A DNA stretch of 64,000 nucleotides from Qipengyuania marisflavi (GTDB lineage: Bacteria; Pseudomonadota; Alphaproteobacteria; Sphingomonadales; Sphingomonadaceae). Within the stretch, counting starts at the first letter, position 1. The number at the start of each line of letters is the position of its first letter. Location: NCBI RefSeq assembly GCF_005884405.1, contig NZ_VCAO01000008.1, positions 1 through 64,000 on the forward strand. Direction: 5' to 3'. The notes below the pieces were generated by a model. That model was given only the letters and a program-made list of their open reading frames with translations, was not told the origin of the DNA and did not search any database. A program made the position numbers and the translations under genes. Of this stretch, positions 23,696 through 28,636 are shown in pieces.

Positions 23696-24727
23696 TCACT
23701 CGGCGTCGGTCAATCCGTGCTTCTTTATACAATGCCGCAGCTGGTCATAGCTGAGGCCGAGCGCCTTGGCGGTCTGGCGCTGGTTCCAGCGATGACGGCC
23801 CAGCGCGTGTTCGACAATCGAGCGTTCGTGCGAATCGACCGCGCCGCGCAGATCCTCAATGCTTTCATAATCGGGGGAGGCCGGTGATGCGGCGGGTGCG
23901 GCGCTGGTCGCAGCGGCAGGCTCAGTGGCAGCGCGCTTTGGTGTGAGCGGTTTCCACGGACTATCGAACGGATCGAACACCATATGCGCGATGGGCTCGT
24001 CCCACGCGTCCCAGCGATACACCGCGCGCTCCACCGCATTGCGCAATTCGCGGACATTGCCGGGCCAGGCATAGTCTTCCATCTCCGCCGCGACGTGCTG
24101 CGCGAAACCGGGCCAGCCGTCCCAGCCCAGCTCCGCCGCCATACGCCGCCCGAAATGCGATGCGAGCACGCCGATATCGCCTTCACGCACCCGGAGCGGC
24201 GGCAGCGTGATCACTTCAAAGCTGAGCCGGTCGAGCAGATCGGCACGGAAATCACCGCGATCGGCGCGCGCGGGCAAATCTTCATTGGTCGCGCCGACAA
24301 TCCGCACATCGACCCGCGTCGGACGGCTTGAGCCGATCCGCGTGATCTCGCCATATTCGACCGCGCGCAGCAGGCGTTCCTGCGCGCCGGTGGACAGTGT
24401 ACCCAGCTCATCAAGGAACAGAGTGCCCTTGTCCGCCTCTTCAAAGCGCCCCACCCGCGCCCGGGTTGCGCCGGTAAACGCGCCCGCTTCGTGACCGAAC
24501 AATTCCGCCTCGATCAGCGTTTCGGGCAGCGCCGCGCAATTGAGCGTGACCAGCGGATGCTCCCAGCGGTTCGACAGGCGGTGCAGGCGTTCGGCGATCA
24601 GTTCCTTGCCGGTTCCGCGCTCCCCGATCACCAGCACAGGCCGGTCCATCGGCGCGGCACGACTGGCGCGCTCGACCGCATCGAGGAAGGCGCCTGACTG
24701 GCCGATAAACTGACTTTCCCGCTCCAT
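23696..24727 (-). CDS. pspF: PspF, sigma-54 enhancer-binding activator of the psp operon
   Basis: The product has 343 residues. An AAA+ domain comes directly at the N-terminus without a receiver domain, as in E. coli PspF. Walker A GERGTGKELIAERLH is at about 34, the sigma-54-contacting loop GAFTGATR at about 84, and Walker B TLFLDELGTLS after it. The R-finger region and the C-terminal Fis-type helix-turn-helix (RWNQRQTAKALGLSYDQLRH) complete it. A Pro/Ala-rich linker sits between them. It is divergent from the psp operon. In known systems PspA binds and inhibits PspF until envelope stress releases it. Start MERESQFIGQ at 24727. Confidence 0.96.
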   Translation of the reverse strand: MERESQFIGQSGAFLDAVERASRAAPMDRPVLVIGERGTGKELIAERLHRLSNRWEHPLVTLNCAALPETLIEAELFGHEAGAFTGATRARVGRFEEADKGTLFLDELGTLSTGAQERLLRAVEYGEITRIGSSRPTRVDVRIVGATNEDLPARADRGDFRADLLDRLSFEVITLPPLRVREGDIGVLASHFGRRMAAELGWDGWPGFAQHVAAEMEDYAWPGNVRELRNAVERAVYRWDAWDEPIAHMVFDPFDSPWKPLTPKRAATEPAAATSAAPAASPASPDYESIEDLRGAVDSHERSIVEHALGRHRWNQRQTAKALGLSYDQLRHCIKKHGLTDAE

Positions 24728-24747
24728 ACCCCAACACATAGGGATTT

Positions 24748-24764
24748 TTGCCAAGCTTTGGCAA
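24748..24764. promoter_or_regulatory. Probable PspF upstream activating sequence
   Basis: TTGCCAA-GCT-TTGGCAA is a perfect 7-bp inverted repeat centred about 99 bases before the predicted psp start point, in the range used by PspF. It is also just upstream of pspF, so it could mediate autoregulation. A second small palindrome, TTCGTCGAA (24782-24790), may be a further site. Confidence 0.6.
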
Positions 24765-24827: not shown

Positions 24828-24844
24828 TTGGCACGGTGCTTGCT
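24828..24844 (+). promoter_or_regulatory. Sigma-54 (-24/-12) promoter of the psp operon
   Basis: TTGGCACG-GTGC-TTGCT matches the sigma-54 consensus (YTGGCACG-N4-TTGCW) at all key positions, with GG (24830-24831) and GC (24842-24843) separated by exactly 10 bases. Predicted start about 24855. The divergent activator pspF and the operon content support it. Confidence 0.92.
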
Positions 24845-24894: not shown

Positions 24895-25047
24895 ATGTAC
24901 AATCGCAGCTTTTTCCGGACCCGGGTTGGCCAGGCCGCGCTGGCGAGCATTACAGCGATGGTCGCTTTCGTCACGCTGAGCTCGCACATCACGGTCACCG
25001 CACCGACACCCGGCCTGGCGATGTATCAGCAGGTCGAGATTGCATGA
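24895..25047 (+). CDS. Small membrane protein at the head of the psp operon (50 aa)
   Basis: ATG at 24895 is preceded by GGGAGGACCCCACC, a strong ribosome site. The 50-residue product (MYNRSFFRTRVGQAALASIT onward) has a single hydrophobic segment (AALASITAMVAFVTLSS) after a basic N-terminus, so it is probably a single-pass inner-membrane or signal-anchored peptide. It is the first gene after the sigma-54 promoter. Its stop overlaps an ATG (ATGA at 25044) that is in frame with pspA. No family is recognised; its place suggests a role in the envelope-stress response. Confidence 0.65.
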   Translation: MYNRSFFRTRVGQAALASITAMVAFVTLSSHITVTAPTPGLAMYQQVEIA

Positions 25048-25256
25048 CCCTGCCCCCCGATCATGATCCCCTTGGGCCGGAGCGTCTGTCCCCCGACAGT
25101 CCCCCTCGTGCCGATCGCACGAACGACGCTTCGGCCCATCCCCCACGCCGTATGCGGCGGATCGAGGAAGAGGTTGAGCGCCTGCGCCGCTCGCCCACCC
25201 CGACCCAGACGCCGCGTGGCCGCACGCAGGATTTCTTTTCCAATGGAGCACCTTTG
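25044..25256 (+). other. In-frame open extension upstream of the usual PspA start
   Basis: From the ATG at 25044, 71 codons run without a stop into the canonical pspA ATG. They use mostly G/C third positions except for the last few, and end in a ribosome-site-like GGAGCACCTTTG. The predicted peptide is Pro/Arg-rich with a short charged helix (RRMRRIEEEVERLRR). It could be an N-terminal extension of PspA made from the first start, or simply leader sequence. Confidence 0.4.
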
Positions 25257-25952
25257 ATGGGTATTTTCAGCCGTACACGCGACATTGTCGCTGCCAATTT
25301 CAACGACATGCTGGACAAGGCGGATGACCCGCACAAAATGATCCGCATGATCATCCTCGAAATGGAGGAAACCCTGGTCGAAGTCCGCGCCTCTGCCGCG
25401 CGCACCATTGCCGACCAGAAGGAAATGCACCGCCACACCATCCGGCTTGACCAATTGCAGGGGGATTGGGGCGAAAAGGCCGAGCTGGCGCTGTCGAAAG
25501 ACCGCGAAGACCTGGCCCGCGCCGCTCTGGTCGAAAAGAAGAAGGCGGCGGATATGTCGGGGCAGCTCAAGACCGAGATCGGCGTGCTGGACGATGCCCT
25601 GCGCGCTTATGAGCAGGACATCCAGAAGCTGCAGAACCGCCTGCGCGAAGCCCGCACCCGCCAGACCGCCATCGCTGCCCGCCTCGAAAGTGCGGAAAAC
25701 CGCGTCAAGCTGCGCAGCCTGATGACCAATGAACGGGTGGACGAGGCGCTGACCCGCTTCGACCAGCTGGAACGCCGTGTCGATTATGCCGAAGGCCGCG
25801 CCGATGCGCTGACCCTGTCGGATGGCAACGCCACACCCAACCTCGCCGACGAGATCGCCGCACTGGAAGGCGCCGATGCCATCGACGACGAACTTGCACA
25901 AATGAAACGCGCACTCGGCAAACCCGAAGATGCCGCGAAAAAAGAGGACTGA
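25257..25952 (+). CDS. pspA: Phage shock protein A (PspA/IM30, ESCRT-III-like)
   Basis: The product has 231 residues from the canonical start MGIFSRTRDIVAANFNDMLD. DDPHKMIRMIILEMEETLVE is the conserved PspA helix 2 region, and nearly the whole protein is coiled coil. PspA inhibits PspF when stress is absent and forms membrane-repairing oligomers when PspB/C signal damage. A ribosome site GGAG lies 9 bases before this ATG; an earlier in-frame ATG at 25044 would add 71 residues. The stop is 4 bases before pspB. Confidence 0.97.
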   Translation: MGIFSRTRDIVAANFNDMLDKADDPHKMIRMIILEMEETLVEVRASAARTIADQKEMHRHTIRLDQLQGDWGEKAELALSKDREDLARAALVEKKKAADMSGQLKTEIGVLDDALRAYEQDIQKLQNRLREARTRQTAIAARLESAENRVKLRSLMTNERVDEALTRFDQLERRVDYAEGRADALTLSDGNATPNLADEIAALEGADAIDDELAQMKRALGKPEDAAKKED

Positions 25953-25956
25953 TCTC

Positions 25957-26250
25957 ATGGAAGAAATCATCATCATCCCGGCCATCTTTATCGGCCTGCC
26001 ATGGATCATTCTCCACTACATCACCAAGTGGAAAACATCGGCCAGCATAACCACCGATGACGAGGTGCTGCTCGAAGAGCTCTACAATCTCGCCAAGCGG
26101 CTTGATGACCGGATGGACACGGTCGAACGGCTGGTCGCCTCGGACAATCCCGAGTTCCGCCCCGCTCGCCTGGTCCACAACAGCGAAGTCGACAACCAGC
26201 AATTGCGCGAGCTTGAACGGCTTGTCGCCGAAAAGAAAGGAGCCCTGTGA
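25957..26250 (+). CDS. pspB: Phage shock protein B, inner-membrane sensor component
   Basis: The product has 97 residues. An N-terminal helix (IIIIPAIFIGLPWIILHYIT) is followed by a cytosolic coiled coil LYNLAKRLDDRMDTVERLVA, the PspB pattern, with an extended tail containing a second predicted coil (QQLRELERLVAEKKG). With PspC it senses envelope stress and draws PspA away from PspF. The DDRMDTVERLVA segment has the same frame as the conserved coil in the downstream small proteins. Its stop overlaps the pspC ATG (TGATG). Confidence 0.9.
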   Translation: MEEIIIIPAIFIGLPWIILHYITKWKTSASITTDDEVLLEELYNLAKRLDDRMDTVERLVASDNPEFRPARLVHNSEVDNQQLRELERLVAEKKGAL

Positions 26251-26624
26251 TGAACAGCCCACGCACCACGCTTTACCGCGACAAGACCAATGCCAAGCTG
26301 ATGGGCGTCTGCTCGGGGATTGCTGACTACACCGGCGTCAACGTCTTGTGGATTCGTCTGGCACTGATCGTGCTGATCTTCTCGACCGGCATCGCGCTGC
26401 CTGCCTATTTCGTTGCCGGGCTGCTGCTGAACAAGAAACCAGCCCACCTCTACGTCGATCATGACGAGCAGAAATACTGGCAGCGGGTTCGCCAGAACCC
26501 CAAGCGCACGGCACGGGAAATCCGCGGCAAGATGAAGGACGTCGATCGCCGTCTGGCTGATGTCGAGACCTTCTACGTCACTAGCAACCCGCGCCTGAAC
26601 GCCGAAATCGAACGGCTGCGCTGA
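26250..26624 (+). CDS. pspC: Phage shock protein C
   Basis: The product has 124 residues. The PspC domain is at the N-terminus: TTLYRDKTNAKLMGVCSGIA, then YTGVNVLWIRLALIVLIF and a second hydrophobic segment ALPAYFVAGLLLN. The C-terminal half is charged, with a helix (KMKDVDRRLADVETFYVT). It works with PspB at the inner membrane to relay stress to PspA. ATG 26250 is used; a GTG one codon earlier is also possible. Ribosome site AAAGGAG. Confidence 0.95.
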   Translation: MNSPRTTLYRDKTNAKLMGVCSGIADYTGVNVLWIRLALIVLIFSTGIALPAYFVAGLLLNKKPAHLYVDHDEQKYWQRVRQNPKRTAREIRGKMKDVDRRLADVETFYVTSNPRLNAEIERLR

Positions 26625-26647
26625 GCGCGGTCTGAGGGAGAAAAACA

Positions 26648-26953
26648 ATGGACTGGGGACTTCTGGTACCGCTCTTCGCACTGTCGATCCCGATCGTCGC
26701 GATCTGGACCAAACATCAGCAGAAGCTGGCCGAGATGAATGTCAAATCGACTGCCGAAAACACCGCAGAAAAGGCCGCCCAATATGTCAGCAGGGTTGGC
26801 GAACTGGAAGACCGTATTCGCGTTCTGGAACGTATCGTCACCGACCGCGGCTATGATGTTGCCACCCAGATCGAGGCGCTGCGAGATCAACGCGCGGTCG
26901 ACACCAAGGACGCCGGGGTTCCGCTTGGCATGAGCCGCAAGGAGCGCGTGTGA
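26648..26953 (+). CDS. PspB-like small one-helix coiled-coil protein, copy 1
   Basis: The product has 101 residues. An N-terminal helix (LLVPLFALSIPIVAIW) is followed by a Lys/Glu linker (QKLAEMNVKSTAENTAEKAA) and the motif VLERIVTDRGYDVATQIE at about 60-77. The architecture, one anchor plus a cytosolic coil, is that of PspB. It follows pspC by 23 bases with its own ribosome site (GAGGGAGAAAAACA). It is the first of six related tandem genes. Function unknown; a modulator of the Psp response is inferred from operon membership. Confidence 0.75.
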   Translation: MDWGLLVPLFALSIPIVAIWTKHQQKLAEMNVKSTAENTAEKAAQYVSRVGELEDRIRVLERIVTDRGYDVATQIEALRDQRAVDTKDAGVPLGMSRKERV

Positions 26954-27312
26954 TGGACTGGGCTGGACCGGATTTCATCGTCGCAATTATCGCCGTGAGC
27001 ACAGCCGGGTGGCTGCTCAACAACTGGATCCGCGCCAAACATGGCTATTCCCTGGAAGACGAATGGGGCGGCAAAACCGACAAGGCCGACAGTCAGGAGG
27101 CCGCGCAATTGAAGCAGGAGAACAGCGAATTGCGCGCGCTCCTGGGCAAGGTCGACAAGCGGATGCAGGTGCTCGAAACCATCGTCACTGACCGCGGCTA
27201 TGATGTTGCAACCCAGATCGAAGCACTGCGTGAGCGCTCGGACGAGCGCCATTCAGACCCCGATATTGACAGCGGCGTCTCGCTTAACCTGAAAAGCAAG
27301 GAAACAATTTGA
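26953..27312 (+). CDS. PspB-like small one-helix coiled-coil protein, copy 2
   Basis: The product has 119 residues. An N-terminal helix (FIVAIIAVSTAGWLLNNWI) leads to RAKHGYSLEDEWGG, a coil (AAQLKQENSELRALLGKVDK) and the motif VLETIVTDRGYDVATQIE, identical to copy 1 except for one residue. The KHGYSLE-like box recurs as KNGYPLE in copy 3. The start ATG shares a base with the previous stop (TGATG). It is probably a single-pass inner-membrane protein. Confidence 0.75.
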   Translation: MDWAGPDFIVAIIAVSTAGWLLNNWIRAKHGYSLEDEWGGKTDKADSQEAAQLKQENSELRALLGKVDKRMQVLETIVTDRGYDVATQIEALRERSDERHSDPDIDSGVSLNLKSKETI

Positions 27313-27620
27313 TGGAATTTCTGAGTGAAACCGCAATCATCGCCGGTGTGGCCATCATGACAGGCGGGTGGATCATCAGCACCTGGCTGCGGATGAAGAA
27401 CGGCTATCCGCTGGAAAACAGCTGGGGCAAGGCGCTCTATCCCAAAACCACCGAAGCGCAGGAACGCGTCAGCCTGCTGACGCAGGAAAACGCCGCGCTG
27501 CGGGCCGAGGTCGGCGCCATGAAAGACCGGCTGGGCAATGTCGAACGCATAGTCACCGACAGCGGTTATCACCTGACGCAGGAGATCGGCCGCCTGAGTG
27601 ACAGCACGGAGGTGAACTGA
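27312..27620 (+). CDS. PspB-like small one-helix coiled-coil protein, copy 3
   Basis: The product has 102 residues. The helix AIIAGVAIMTGGWIISTWL is followed by RMKNGYPLENSWGK, closely matching the same region of copy 2, then a heptad-patterned coil (RVSLLTQENAALRAEVGAMK) and the variant motif NVERIVTDSGYHLTQEIG. Copies 2 and 3 look like the most recent duplication of the set. It starts on the stop of copy 2 (TGATG). Confidence 0.75.
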   Translation: MEFLSETAIIAGVAIMTGGWIISTWLRMKNGYPLENSWGKALYPKTTEAQERVSLLTQENAALRAEVGAMKDRLGNVERIVTDSGYHLTQEIGRLSDSTEVN

Positions 27621-27907
27621 TGGACCCCGAATTTATCGTGATCCTGGTGTTCGTCGTCGCGATGACTGCCATTGTGCTGGGCATCGGCAATGAAATCTTT
27701 CGCCGCCATCTCGAGCACAAGGAAAAGACTATGGAGATGATGGCCGACAAGACCGCCCAGCAGGCCGCGCAATACGCCGCCAAGGCCGAGAAGCTGGAGC
27801 AGCGGGTGCGCGTGCTGGAACGCATCGCCACCGATCGCGGACAGGATCTGGCGATGGAAATCGAGGATCTGCGCGAACGGCCTGCCGAAGGGGAGAGCGT
27901 CCAATGA
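27620..27907 (+). CDS. PspB-like small one-helix coiled-coil protein, copy 4
   Basis: The product has 95 residues. The helix FIVILVFVVAMTAIVLGIG is followed by a basic/acidic coil (RRHLEHKEKTMEMMADKTAQ) and the motif VLERIATDRGQDLAMEIEDL. The linker AQQAAQYAAKAEKLEQR recalls EKAAQYVSRVGELEDR of copy 1, so copies 1 and 4 share more than the end motif. It overlaps copy 3 by one base and copy 5 by four. Confidence 0.75.
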   Translation: MDPEFIVILVFVVAMTAIVLGIGNEIFRRHLEHKEKTMEMMADKTAQQAAQYAAKAEKLEQRVRVLERIATDRGQDLAMEIEDLRERPAEGESVQ

Positions 27908-28185
27908 GCGGCTGGGCCACCGTGGCCATCGTGGCCATCGTGGTGTGGGGGATCGTCCAGATATCCCGCGCCCGGCACCGGGCCGAACGCGGCATTGTGC
28001 GGGATGAACGCGGCAATGAAAGCCTGGCCGCGCAGCCCGACCCCGCCGCCCAGCGCGAGATCGAGGATCTGCGCGAACGTATCAAGGTGCTGGAACGCAT
28101 CGCCACCGATGGCAATTCGCTGGACGCCCGTGAAACGCGCGCAATTGCCGAAGAGATTGAAAGCCTGCGCCAACAGCAGGACTGA
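27904..28185 (+). CDS. PspB-like small one-helix coiled-coil protein, copy 5
   Basis: The product has 93 residues. A short helix (WATVAIVAIVVWGIVQI) is followed by RARHRAERGI and a coil with IEDLRERIKVLERIATDGNS, then an added charged helix (RETRAIAEEIESLRQQQ). The VLERIATD core matches copy 4. It overlaps the previous gene by four bases (ATGA). Confidence 0.72.
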   Translation: MSGWATVAIVAIVVWGIVQISRARHRAERGIVRDERGNESLAAQPDPAAQREIEDLRERIKVLERIATDGNSLDARETRAIAEEIESLRQQQD

Positions 28186-28217
28186 CCACGCGCCCAGCGT
28201 TGAAGGAGGGCATAGAA

Positions 28218-28463
28218 ATGTTCGAACCGACACTGATCATCACCGCCGCATCGCTGGTCGGGCTTGTCATCGTTGCCGCCGCCCTGCTGCGCGCCTGGCA
28301 GGGATGGCTGACGCTCAAGCAGCGCGAGCTCGACACCGCCGATCATGCGCCGACCCGTGACCGCGAACCCGGCAGCCCGCTGGGTGCCGCCCGCATCGAA
28401 ATCGCCGATCTGAAGGAACGCATCCGCAAGCTGGAAGCCATCGCCAGCGGGGTCGATCTGTGA
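28218..28463 (+). CDS. PspB-like small one-helix coiled-coil protein, copy 6
   Basis: The product has 81 residues. The helix LIITAASLVGLVIVAAALL is followed by RAWQGWLTLKQRELDTADH and a C-terminal coil EIADLKERIRKLEAIASG. It keeps the L-x-E-R-I-x-x-L-E-x-I pattern but lacks the TDRG extension, so it is the most diverged copy. Ribosome site GAAGGAGGGC 8 bases before the ATG. It overlaps the next gene by four bases. Confidence 0.7.
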   Translation: MFEPTLIITAASLVGLVIVAAALLRAWQGWLTLKQRELDTADHAPTRDREPGSPLGAARIEIADLKERIRKLEAIASGVDL

Positions 28464-28636
28464 CCGCAGCACGTACCGATGCAGCGCGCGCCGGCATCGG
28501 CCTGGGCAGCGCCATAGCGGCGGCGATTTCGTGGAGCCTGCACAGCTCGATCATCTGGGCCGCGATCCACGGTTTCTTCGGCTGGTTCTATGTCATCTAT
28601 TACGCCTTCACCCGTCCCGGCGGCCTGTCCGGCTGA
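28460..28636 (+). CDS. 58-residue hydrophobic protein at the end of the psp operon
   Basis: A GTG start overlaps the previous stop (GTGA). After a short polar N-terminus (VTAARTDAARAG) comes a long hydrophobic stretch GLGSAIAAAISWSLHSSIIW and AAIHGFFGWFYVIYYAF. The S-W-S-x-H-x-S and I-H-G-x-x-G-W-x-Y-x-I-Y-Y pattern resembles tiny conserved membrane proteins known in several phyla, whose function I do not know. Probably one or two helices in the inner membrane. Confidence 0.6.
   Translation: MTAARTDAARAGIGLGSAIAAAISWSLHSSIIWAAIHGFFGWFYVIYYAFTRPGGLSG

Follow-up and report, generated by a model that had tools for sequence, protein, structure and literature searches.

The window, a 64,000-nt stretch of Qipengyuania marisflavi DNA from a genome of 2.67 Mb in 18 contigs, carries a psp locus in which a divergent pspF-type gene is followed by a sigma-54-like site, a leader gene, pspA, pspB, pspC, six small genes that we designated g1 to g6, a further small gene (g7), a SufE-like gene and a DUF454-like gene (Table 1). 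The names of the pspF-type, SufE-like and DUF454-like genes were derived from their sequences and, in the case of the pspF-type gene, also from its position. Standard depictions of the Psp response, a bacterial alarm for membrane damage, show a single PspB and a single PspC. At this locus, the leader gene showed a dN/dS of 0.27. The in-frame extension of pspA starts no more than 6 nt from the leader stop codon in 21 sequences (the window and 20 loci) and its dN/dS was 0.43. At the other end, g7 was present in 17 of the 23 same-genus loci analysed, with a dN/dS of 0.24 and no hit in a Pfam search.

Table 1. Features of the psp locus in the window.
Feature	Position	Strand	Remarks
pspF-type sigma-54 activator gene	23696..24754	-	Divergent from the operon; ORF, named by sequence and position
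Sigma-54 (-24/-12) promoter-like site TGGCACGGTGCTTGC	24829..24843	+	428 nt 5′ of the pspA ATG
Leader gene, 50 aa, membrane-protein-like	24895..25047	+	Pattern match in the window and in 20/23 same-genus loci
pspA in-frame N-terminal extension (71 codons) or separate ORF running into pspA	25044..25256	+	
pspA	25257..25952	+	TIGR02977, 275.6 bits (cut-off 242.95)
pspB, single canonical copy	25957..26250	+	TIGR02976, 93.5 bits (cut-off 51.7); PF06667, 75.7 bits
pspC, shared element in C-terminal tail	26250..26624	+	TIGR02978, 125.4 bits (cut-off 104)
g1, PspB/PspC-tail-like, 101 aa	26648..26953	+	Homology, synteny, AlphaFold
g2, 119 aa	26953..27312	+	Present in 10/23 same-genus loci
g3, 102 aa	27312..27620	+	Nearest copy to the PspC tail of the genus (hhalign 93%)
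g4, 95 aa	27620..27907	+	Closest to PspB (TIGR02976, E 2.6e-6, 27.6 bits)
g5, 93 aa	27904..28185	+	Coil core retained; additional residues within the tail element
g6, 81 aa	28218..28463	+	Coil core retained; tail element without its second half
g7, 58 aa, conserved membrane-protein-like, outside the coil family	28460..28636	+	4-nt overlap with g6

The sequence-only reading of this DNA had described six consecutive small genes (81–119 aa) located 3′ of pspABC, with overlapping starts and stops, each encoding an N-terminal transmembrane (TM) helix followed by a cytosolic coil with a common core, and our analysis found all of these properties. The six genes lie on the plus strand, with overlaps of 1, 1, 1 and 4 nt across g1 to g5 and a 32-nt gap between g5 and g6. 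Each product contains an N-terminal hydrophobic 19-mer with the heavier positive charge on its C-terminal side, which predicts a cytosolic C-terminus; the same topology was predicted from hydropathy and the positive-inside rule for all same-genus g1–g6 rows except one g6. The common core reads VLERIVTDRG in g1, VLETIVTDRG in g2, NVERIVTDSG in g3, VLERIATDRG in g4, VLERIATDGN in g5 and KLEAIASG in g6, and thus erodes towards g6. At the DNA level, a 27-nt core repeat occurs in six in-register copies, one per gene, the other five being 67–96% identical to the reference copy. The near identity of the g1 and g2 tails, also pointed out from the sequence, was confirmed in this genome and proved to be peculiar to it: in the 10 relatives that carry g2, its tail reads GYSLHDEIEAL, GYSVAAEIEAL or similar. 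Since the g2 tails of the relatives differ from g1, gene conversion from g1 is suggested for the g2 tail of this genome. AlphaFold predicted g1 as one continuous helix from 6 to 88 (pLDDT 84, pTM 0.37) and gave a poor model for PspC (pLDDT 66). A helix-turn-helix tail was considered and dropped because the g1 model is a single uninterrupted helix.

The sigma-54 pattern showed a single match when both strands of the window were searched, and it was found 372–475 nt 5′ of pspA in 21 of the 23 same-genus loci, with no match upstream of pspA in loci L036 and L056. Between positions 24700 and 29600 we found one sigma-70-like site, compared to 1.0 in shuffled sequences, and seven terminator-like sites, compared to 4.6; no internal promoter-like or terminator-like site was found on the plus strand within g1–g6. 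Because of the gene spacing, g1–g6 are predicted to be co-transcribed with the psp operon.

We then compared the locus with those of other genomes in the genus; of 24 examined, 23 carried PspB and were used, and genome G001 had no match over the cut-off. The array was located behind pspC in 23 out of 23 loci. Copies g1 and g3 were present in 23 loci, g4, g5 and g6 in 22 each, and g2 in 10 (the contig of locus L046 stops after g4). Median pairwise dN/dS values ranged from 0.24 to 0.38 for g1–g6 (median dS 0.8–1.1, a few saturated pairs excluded), compared to 0.15 for PspB and 0.18 for PspC. The g1–g6 genes are under purifying selection. In a sample of 59 Sphingomonadaceae genomes, one per genus, the array family was detected in 56 at E 0.001 and was not found at this threshold in G057, G075 and G089. 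Among the genera with matches, 19 others were picked, and in all 19 the array was placed behind the psp genes with one to eight copies; overall, psp linkage was observed in all 42 Sphingomonadaceae loci besides the window. A tree of 122 family proteins, in which 36 of 119 inner branches reached the support mark and the bootstrap did not converge, recovered cross-genus clades for g3 (100/99), g6 (100/99) and g1-type proteins (99/90), indicating that these copies predate the genera. Copies g2 and g4 did not form single clades. Among copies, the TM and linker parts vary and the core is fixed.

The similarity of the copies to one another, which had been proposed from the shared core, was borne out by profile comparison: g1–g5 aligned to each other with hhalign values of 93–99.8%. 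For g6 the values were 93% with g5, 77% with g4, 38% with g3, 17% with g2 and 8% with g1, and g6 apparently joins the family through g5. When columns were shuffled (20 shuffles for each of nine test pairs) the maximum score was 18.8, and the g1-g5 score was 66. Two control families, FtsB/DivIC (28 sequences from relatives) and PspA (35 sequences), gave values of at most 23% against g1–g6, and a relationship of g1–g6 with FtsB/DivIC was rejected on this basis. The background was high in other pairs: FtsB/DivIC reached 58% against a set of 19 unlinked family members from outside the order (outside-order set), and PspA reached 44% against 15 unlinked members from within the order (unlinked order set). 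Because of the 58% value, we counted hhalign results as evidence only above about 60%. One explanation of the array is that its genes are neutral tandem duplicates whose resemblance is generic to coiled coils and amounts to noise. This background of up to 58% in some coiled-coil pairs and a copy number that ranges from 1 to 8 would fit such an explanation; purifying selection on g1–g6, the retention of the g1, g3 and g6 subfamilies across genera, and both the shuffled and the FtsB/PspA controls speak against it, and we consider it very improbable.

The relationship with PspB put forward in the sequence-only reading was found for part of the copies. A PspB profile built from other Sphingomonadales families (order-level PspB) matched g4 (95%), g5 (88%) and g1 (86%), and gave low values for g2 (42%), g3 (34%) and g6 (5%). 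Against the PspB profile of the own genus, none of the six exceeded 16%. No window copy passed the curated PspB cut-offs of Pfam or NCBIfam, nor did g1–g6 score above the cut-off of any family; the best copy, g4, reached 18.7 of the 25.6 bits needed in Pfam and 27.6 of the 51.7 bits needed in NCBIfam. In two relatives the g1 orthologue was at the Pfam PspB cut-off, with 25.9 bits in G006 and 25.3 bits in G010, where 25.9 bits was obtained only when the neighbours in the frame were included. Both unlinked sets matched g1–g5 (97–99%) and order-level PspB (96–97%); of nine unlinked members scanned, none was over the Pfam cut-off and the best reached 40.7 bits with the NCBIfam PspB model (cut-off 51.7). 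On these profile comparisons, g1–g6 belong to the PspB superfamily.

Comparison with PspC gave a different distribution of matches. The PspC profile of the genus matched g3 (93%), g2 (69%), g5 (59%), g4 (56%), g1 (3%) and g6 (0.3%), with alignments falling in the PspC tail, the g2 alignment beginning further upstream; its values for both unlinked sets were 1–3%. Order-level PspC gave 84% for g2, 80% for g4, 79% for g3, 58% for g1, 18% for g6 and 9% for g5, and 83% and 48% for the unlinked sets. No PspC domain (PF04024) was detected in g1–g6 by Pfam search. In the reverse direction, we built a profile, A1, from 37 array-type proteins and no PspC. A1 retrieved the PspC tail of the window (26451–26639, E 8.1e-5) and tails in G081 (1.4e-5), G105 (1.9e-5), G118 (9.9e-7) and G123 (1.8e-7), each sharing its open frame with a PspC-domain match that lies directly 5′ of it. 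A sixth match, in G480 (3.2e-5), is presumably PspC because it lies directly behind a PspB match. When the 37 A1 members were searched against 18,950 NCBIfam models at E 0.01, PspC (24 members) and PspB (16) were the top two and each non-Psp model was matched by at most two members; in Pfam, PspB was matched by nine and any other family by at most three. Searches of solved structures returned no Psp match, either with PspC (one unrelated hit, E 0.19) or with A1 (28 hits, predominantly coiled coils, the best at E 0.034).

The region shared with PspC was described by a 23-residue signature that extends from R-h-x-x-h-E to a closing x-I-x-x-L. In the six frames of the window the signature matched five times, in the PspC tail and in g1, g2, g3 and g4, and 20 shuffles gave no match. 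It was present in 24 of 24 same-genus PspC proteins and in 12 of 14 others (36 of 38 in total), the two exceptions being short, tailless second PspC genes, as well as in every g1, g2 and g3 and in 22 of 23 g4 of the genus. It was absent from PspB (0/36), g5 (0/23) and g6 (0/23). As the signature was composed after PspC and array sequences had been compared, the profile results constitute the independent test. In sequence terms, the C-terminal element of g1–g4 is of the PspC-tail type and not of the PspB type. The first part of the signature, R-h-x-x-h-E, is a trimerisation motif that is also found in some dimers, according to the relevant passages of PMC3653964. All 178 PspB, PspC and g1–g6 rows of the genus carried the strict published form of the motif, and a looser form would be expected in 1.1–3.9 rows per group by shuffling. 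The motif also occurred in 22 of 24 PspA rows, and it thus supports coiled-coil assembly and not one specific partner.

These results bear on the possibility that the copies are diverged PspB paralogues that keep the job of PspB, that is, partners and regulators of PspC in stress sensing, tuned to different signals and with no contact with PspA. The predicted PspB-like layout of the copies, the order-level PspB matches of g4, g5 and g1, the g1 orthologues that reach the Pfam cut-off in G006 and G010 and the finding, in the passages of PMC3068692 that deal with it, that E. coli PspB contacts PspC directly and not PspA are all consistent with this possibility. Two results weigh against it: the tail signature, missing from all 36 PspB, marks every g1–g3 and nearly every g4 of the genus, and PspB of the own genus matches the copies at 16% at most. 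We regard it as rather unlikely.

Outside the Sphingomonadaceae, the family showed a different arrangement. Elsewhere in Sphingomonadales, 15 out of 18 loci were unlinked single or paired genes and the other three were single genes linked to psp, each following a short second PspC; in a separate set of 12 order-level psp loci, one (L067) had an array-family gene. The unlinked genes of L088 and L094 lie directly 3′ of an rpoD-like gene and that of L084 lies near one, the rpoD-like label being read from the protein start. In a class sample, 3 of 144 genomes matched at 1e-5, all Sphingomonadaceae. In a phylum sample, 28 of 249 matched at 1e-4, comprising 14 Sphingomonadaceae, two members of other orders of the class (G381 and G483) and 12 members of another class, probably Gammaproteobacteria. 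The 14 matching genomes outside Sphingomonadaceae scored 1e-9 or better and fall in five families, and at 16 loci from 13 of them no pspA, pspB or pspC was detected within about 4.5 kb. The sequence-only reading had proposed that PspB duplicated and diverged into the set. The PspB-superfamily part of this proposal stands; a simple local duplication of PspB is unsupported, because unlinked single relatives occur elsewhere.

We next asked how the family is distributed with respect to PspB and PspC. PspB was present in 27 of the 28 phylum-sample genomes with the array family compared to 16 of the 221 without it (Fisher p = 6.5e-24, and 1.2e-14 excluding Sphingomonadaceae; both values ignore phylogeny). 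The exception, G080, combines pspA with a PspC-domain gene and has no PspB match. Conversely, 27 of the 43 PspB-bearing genomes have the array family and 16 do not. In the order sample, PspC was present in 90 genomes and absent from 9; the family was found in 79 of the former and 1 of the latter (p 3.5e-6); weak A1 matches in this sample may partly be PspC tails, and after removing the five weaker than 1e-8 (G026, G113, G115, G162 and G169) the figures were 74 of 90 and 1 of 9 (p 3.3e-5). An alternative to be weighed here is that the proteins are co-regulated scaffolds in the membrane that serve a different stress partner, for instance a protease, a transporter or a lipid domain, with no direct contact with Psp proteins. 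Most members outside Sphingomonadaceae have no psp linkage (15 of the 18 loci elsewhere in the order, and all 16 loci from the other orders and the other class), and the variable TM and linker parts around a fixed core would also suit a scaffold. The phyletic dependence on PspB and PspC and the psp linkage of all 42 Sphingomonadaceae loci argue the other way, and we judge the scaffold alternative distinctly unlikely.

With respect to known systems, the array proteins resemble PspB (PF06667/TIGR02976) in having one N-terminal TM helix, a cytosolic coil, the R-h-x-x-h-E motif and a position in the psp operon, and g1, g4 and g5 in profile similarity to order-level PspB. They differ from it in that the window copies are under both curated cut-offs and the array comprises several copies, some with a longer tail element that PspB does not have, and in that family members elsewhere have no psp linkage. 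They resemble the PspC tail (TIGR02978, positions about 72–121) through the 23-residue element of g1–g4, with the same spacing from core to closing leucine, and through the retrieval of PspC tails by the array profile; unlike PspC, g1–g6 have no PspC domain and the element is borne on a single TM helix. The sequence-only reading had called the module undescribed, which is too strong, since PMC11237479 (2024; its example is AOL22920.1) mentions PspB duplicates in the operon and a PspB-like end on PspC, in one line each. Array size, subfamilies, a link of the extra copies to the PspC tail, an unlinked family and co-occurrence do not appear in the passages of that paper that bear on the subject. 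The corresponding passages of PMC9239133 do not report PspB duplication, and those of PMC11186258 describe altered expression of Zymomonas PspA, PspB and PspC under stress with extra copies unmentioned. Our search found no literature on such arrays beyond PMC11237479; within the literature searched, the extent of the array, its resemblance to the PspC tail, the existence of an unlinked family and the joint occurrence of that family with PspB seem to be novel.

Taken together, the array family appears to be a third family of Psp proteins, which Sphingomonadaceae placed in the psp operon and multiplied there. In published accounts, as far as their relevant passages go, PspB and PspC are partners in an inner-membrane complex and the PspC tail binds PspA; mutations in the leucine zipper of E. 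coli PspC abolish the interaction with PspA (PMC3068692, in the passages concerned). Our preferred reading, to which we give an even chance, is that g1–g6 form a third branch beside PspB and the PspC tail and serve as additional subunits that dock PspA at the membrane, with mixed coils. It is supported by homology, operon position, the promoter site, purifying selection, the shared element and the co-occurrence with PspB even of unlinked genes. The g1–g6 genes would be expressed from the sigma-54 (PspF-type) promoter of pspA, at which the operon begins. Each copy would be anchored by its N-terminal TM helix and expose a cytosolic coil with the trimer-type R-h-x-x-h-E core, and homo- or mixed coiled-coil bundles may form among g1–g6, PspB and PspC. 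In g1–g4, the end of PspC placed on a PspB-like anchor would offer additional docking sites for PspA; g5 and g6, which retain the coil and not the whole tail, would contribute as partners in the coils and not as docking sites. The variable TM and linker parts around the fixed core would permit different membrane settings and mixed coils. In this way g1–g6 would bring PspA to the inner membrane or keep it there, drawing it off PspF. We infer PspA binding, oligomer formation and the effect on signalling for g1–g6.

Several observations run against the docking reading. Copies g5 and g6 have no PspC-tail signature, and the genus PspC profile misses g1, g6 and both unlinked sets. The passages of PMC3068692 on topology describe the PspC tail as “putative periplasmic”, with two possible topologies. 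The coiled-coil background is high in some pairs (58% and 44%) and R-h-x-x-h-E is non-specific, as its presence in PspA illustrates. The co-occurrence ignores phylogeny, involves five outside families and leaves 16 PspB genomes without the array family. A wider version of the docking reading, which we hold tentatively and at rather less than even chance, is that the proteins constitute an unrecognised third Psp family, present in at least two classes and nearly only with PspB, of interchangeable PspA docking subunits with PspC-type tails; members of the other class would carry scattered copies, one or two each, and Sphingomonadaceae would have gathered and multiplied them in the psp operon so that mixed coils set the placement of PspA on the membrane.

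PspA is a bacterial ESCRT-III protein. If the array proteins are anchors for PspA, the picture drawn from E. coli misses a component found in 27 of the 43 PspB-bearing genomes of the phylum sample, and the choice of membrane site by PspA becomes testable. A function would also be assigned to small conserved genes, including unlinked ones that operon-based surveys would miss. The six related small membrane proteins encoded beside the psp genes may supply additional docking points for PspA, the principal repair protein of the Psp system.

The leader between the sigma-54 site and pspA extends over ~400 nt and holds a gene for a 50-aa protein, with a dN/dS of 0.27 (21 sequences). The 71 codons immediately 5' of pspA, which read MTLPPDHDPLGPER...EEEVERLRRSPTPT...FFSNGAPL, showed a dN/dS of 0.43 (21 sequences), compared with 0.10 for PspA proper, and an N-terminally extended form of PspA may be produced.

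Additional features of the psp region
Feature	Coordinates	Strand	Remarks
50-aa leader gene	24895-25047	+	membrane-protein-like, conserved; between sigma-54 site and pspA
In-frame pspA N-terminal extension, 71 codons	25044-25256	+	conserved; begins at leader stop
g7, 58-aa gene	28460-28636	+	membrane-protein-like, conserved; 4-nt overlap with g6

At the other end of the array formed by the six small genes g1-g6, g7 is present in 17 of the 23 same-genus loci and gave no match in Pfam. Elsewhere in the Sphingomonadales, four loci of another family, f8 (L093, L095, L099 and L067), carry a second, shorter PspC-domain gene inside the psp operon, with one array-type gene after it. At locus L114, two genes of the array type occur together with pspA and a short gene resembling PspC, and the genome (G080) yielded no PspB match.

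Within the array, the tail of g2 (27145-27233) matches g1 at 76% over 89 nt and is closer to g1 than to the g2 orthologues, a sequence pattern that suggests gene conversion in the lineage of Qipengyuania marisflavi.
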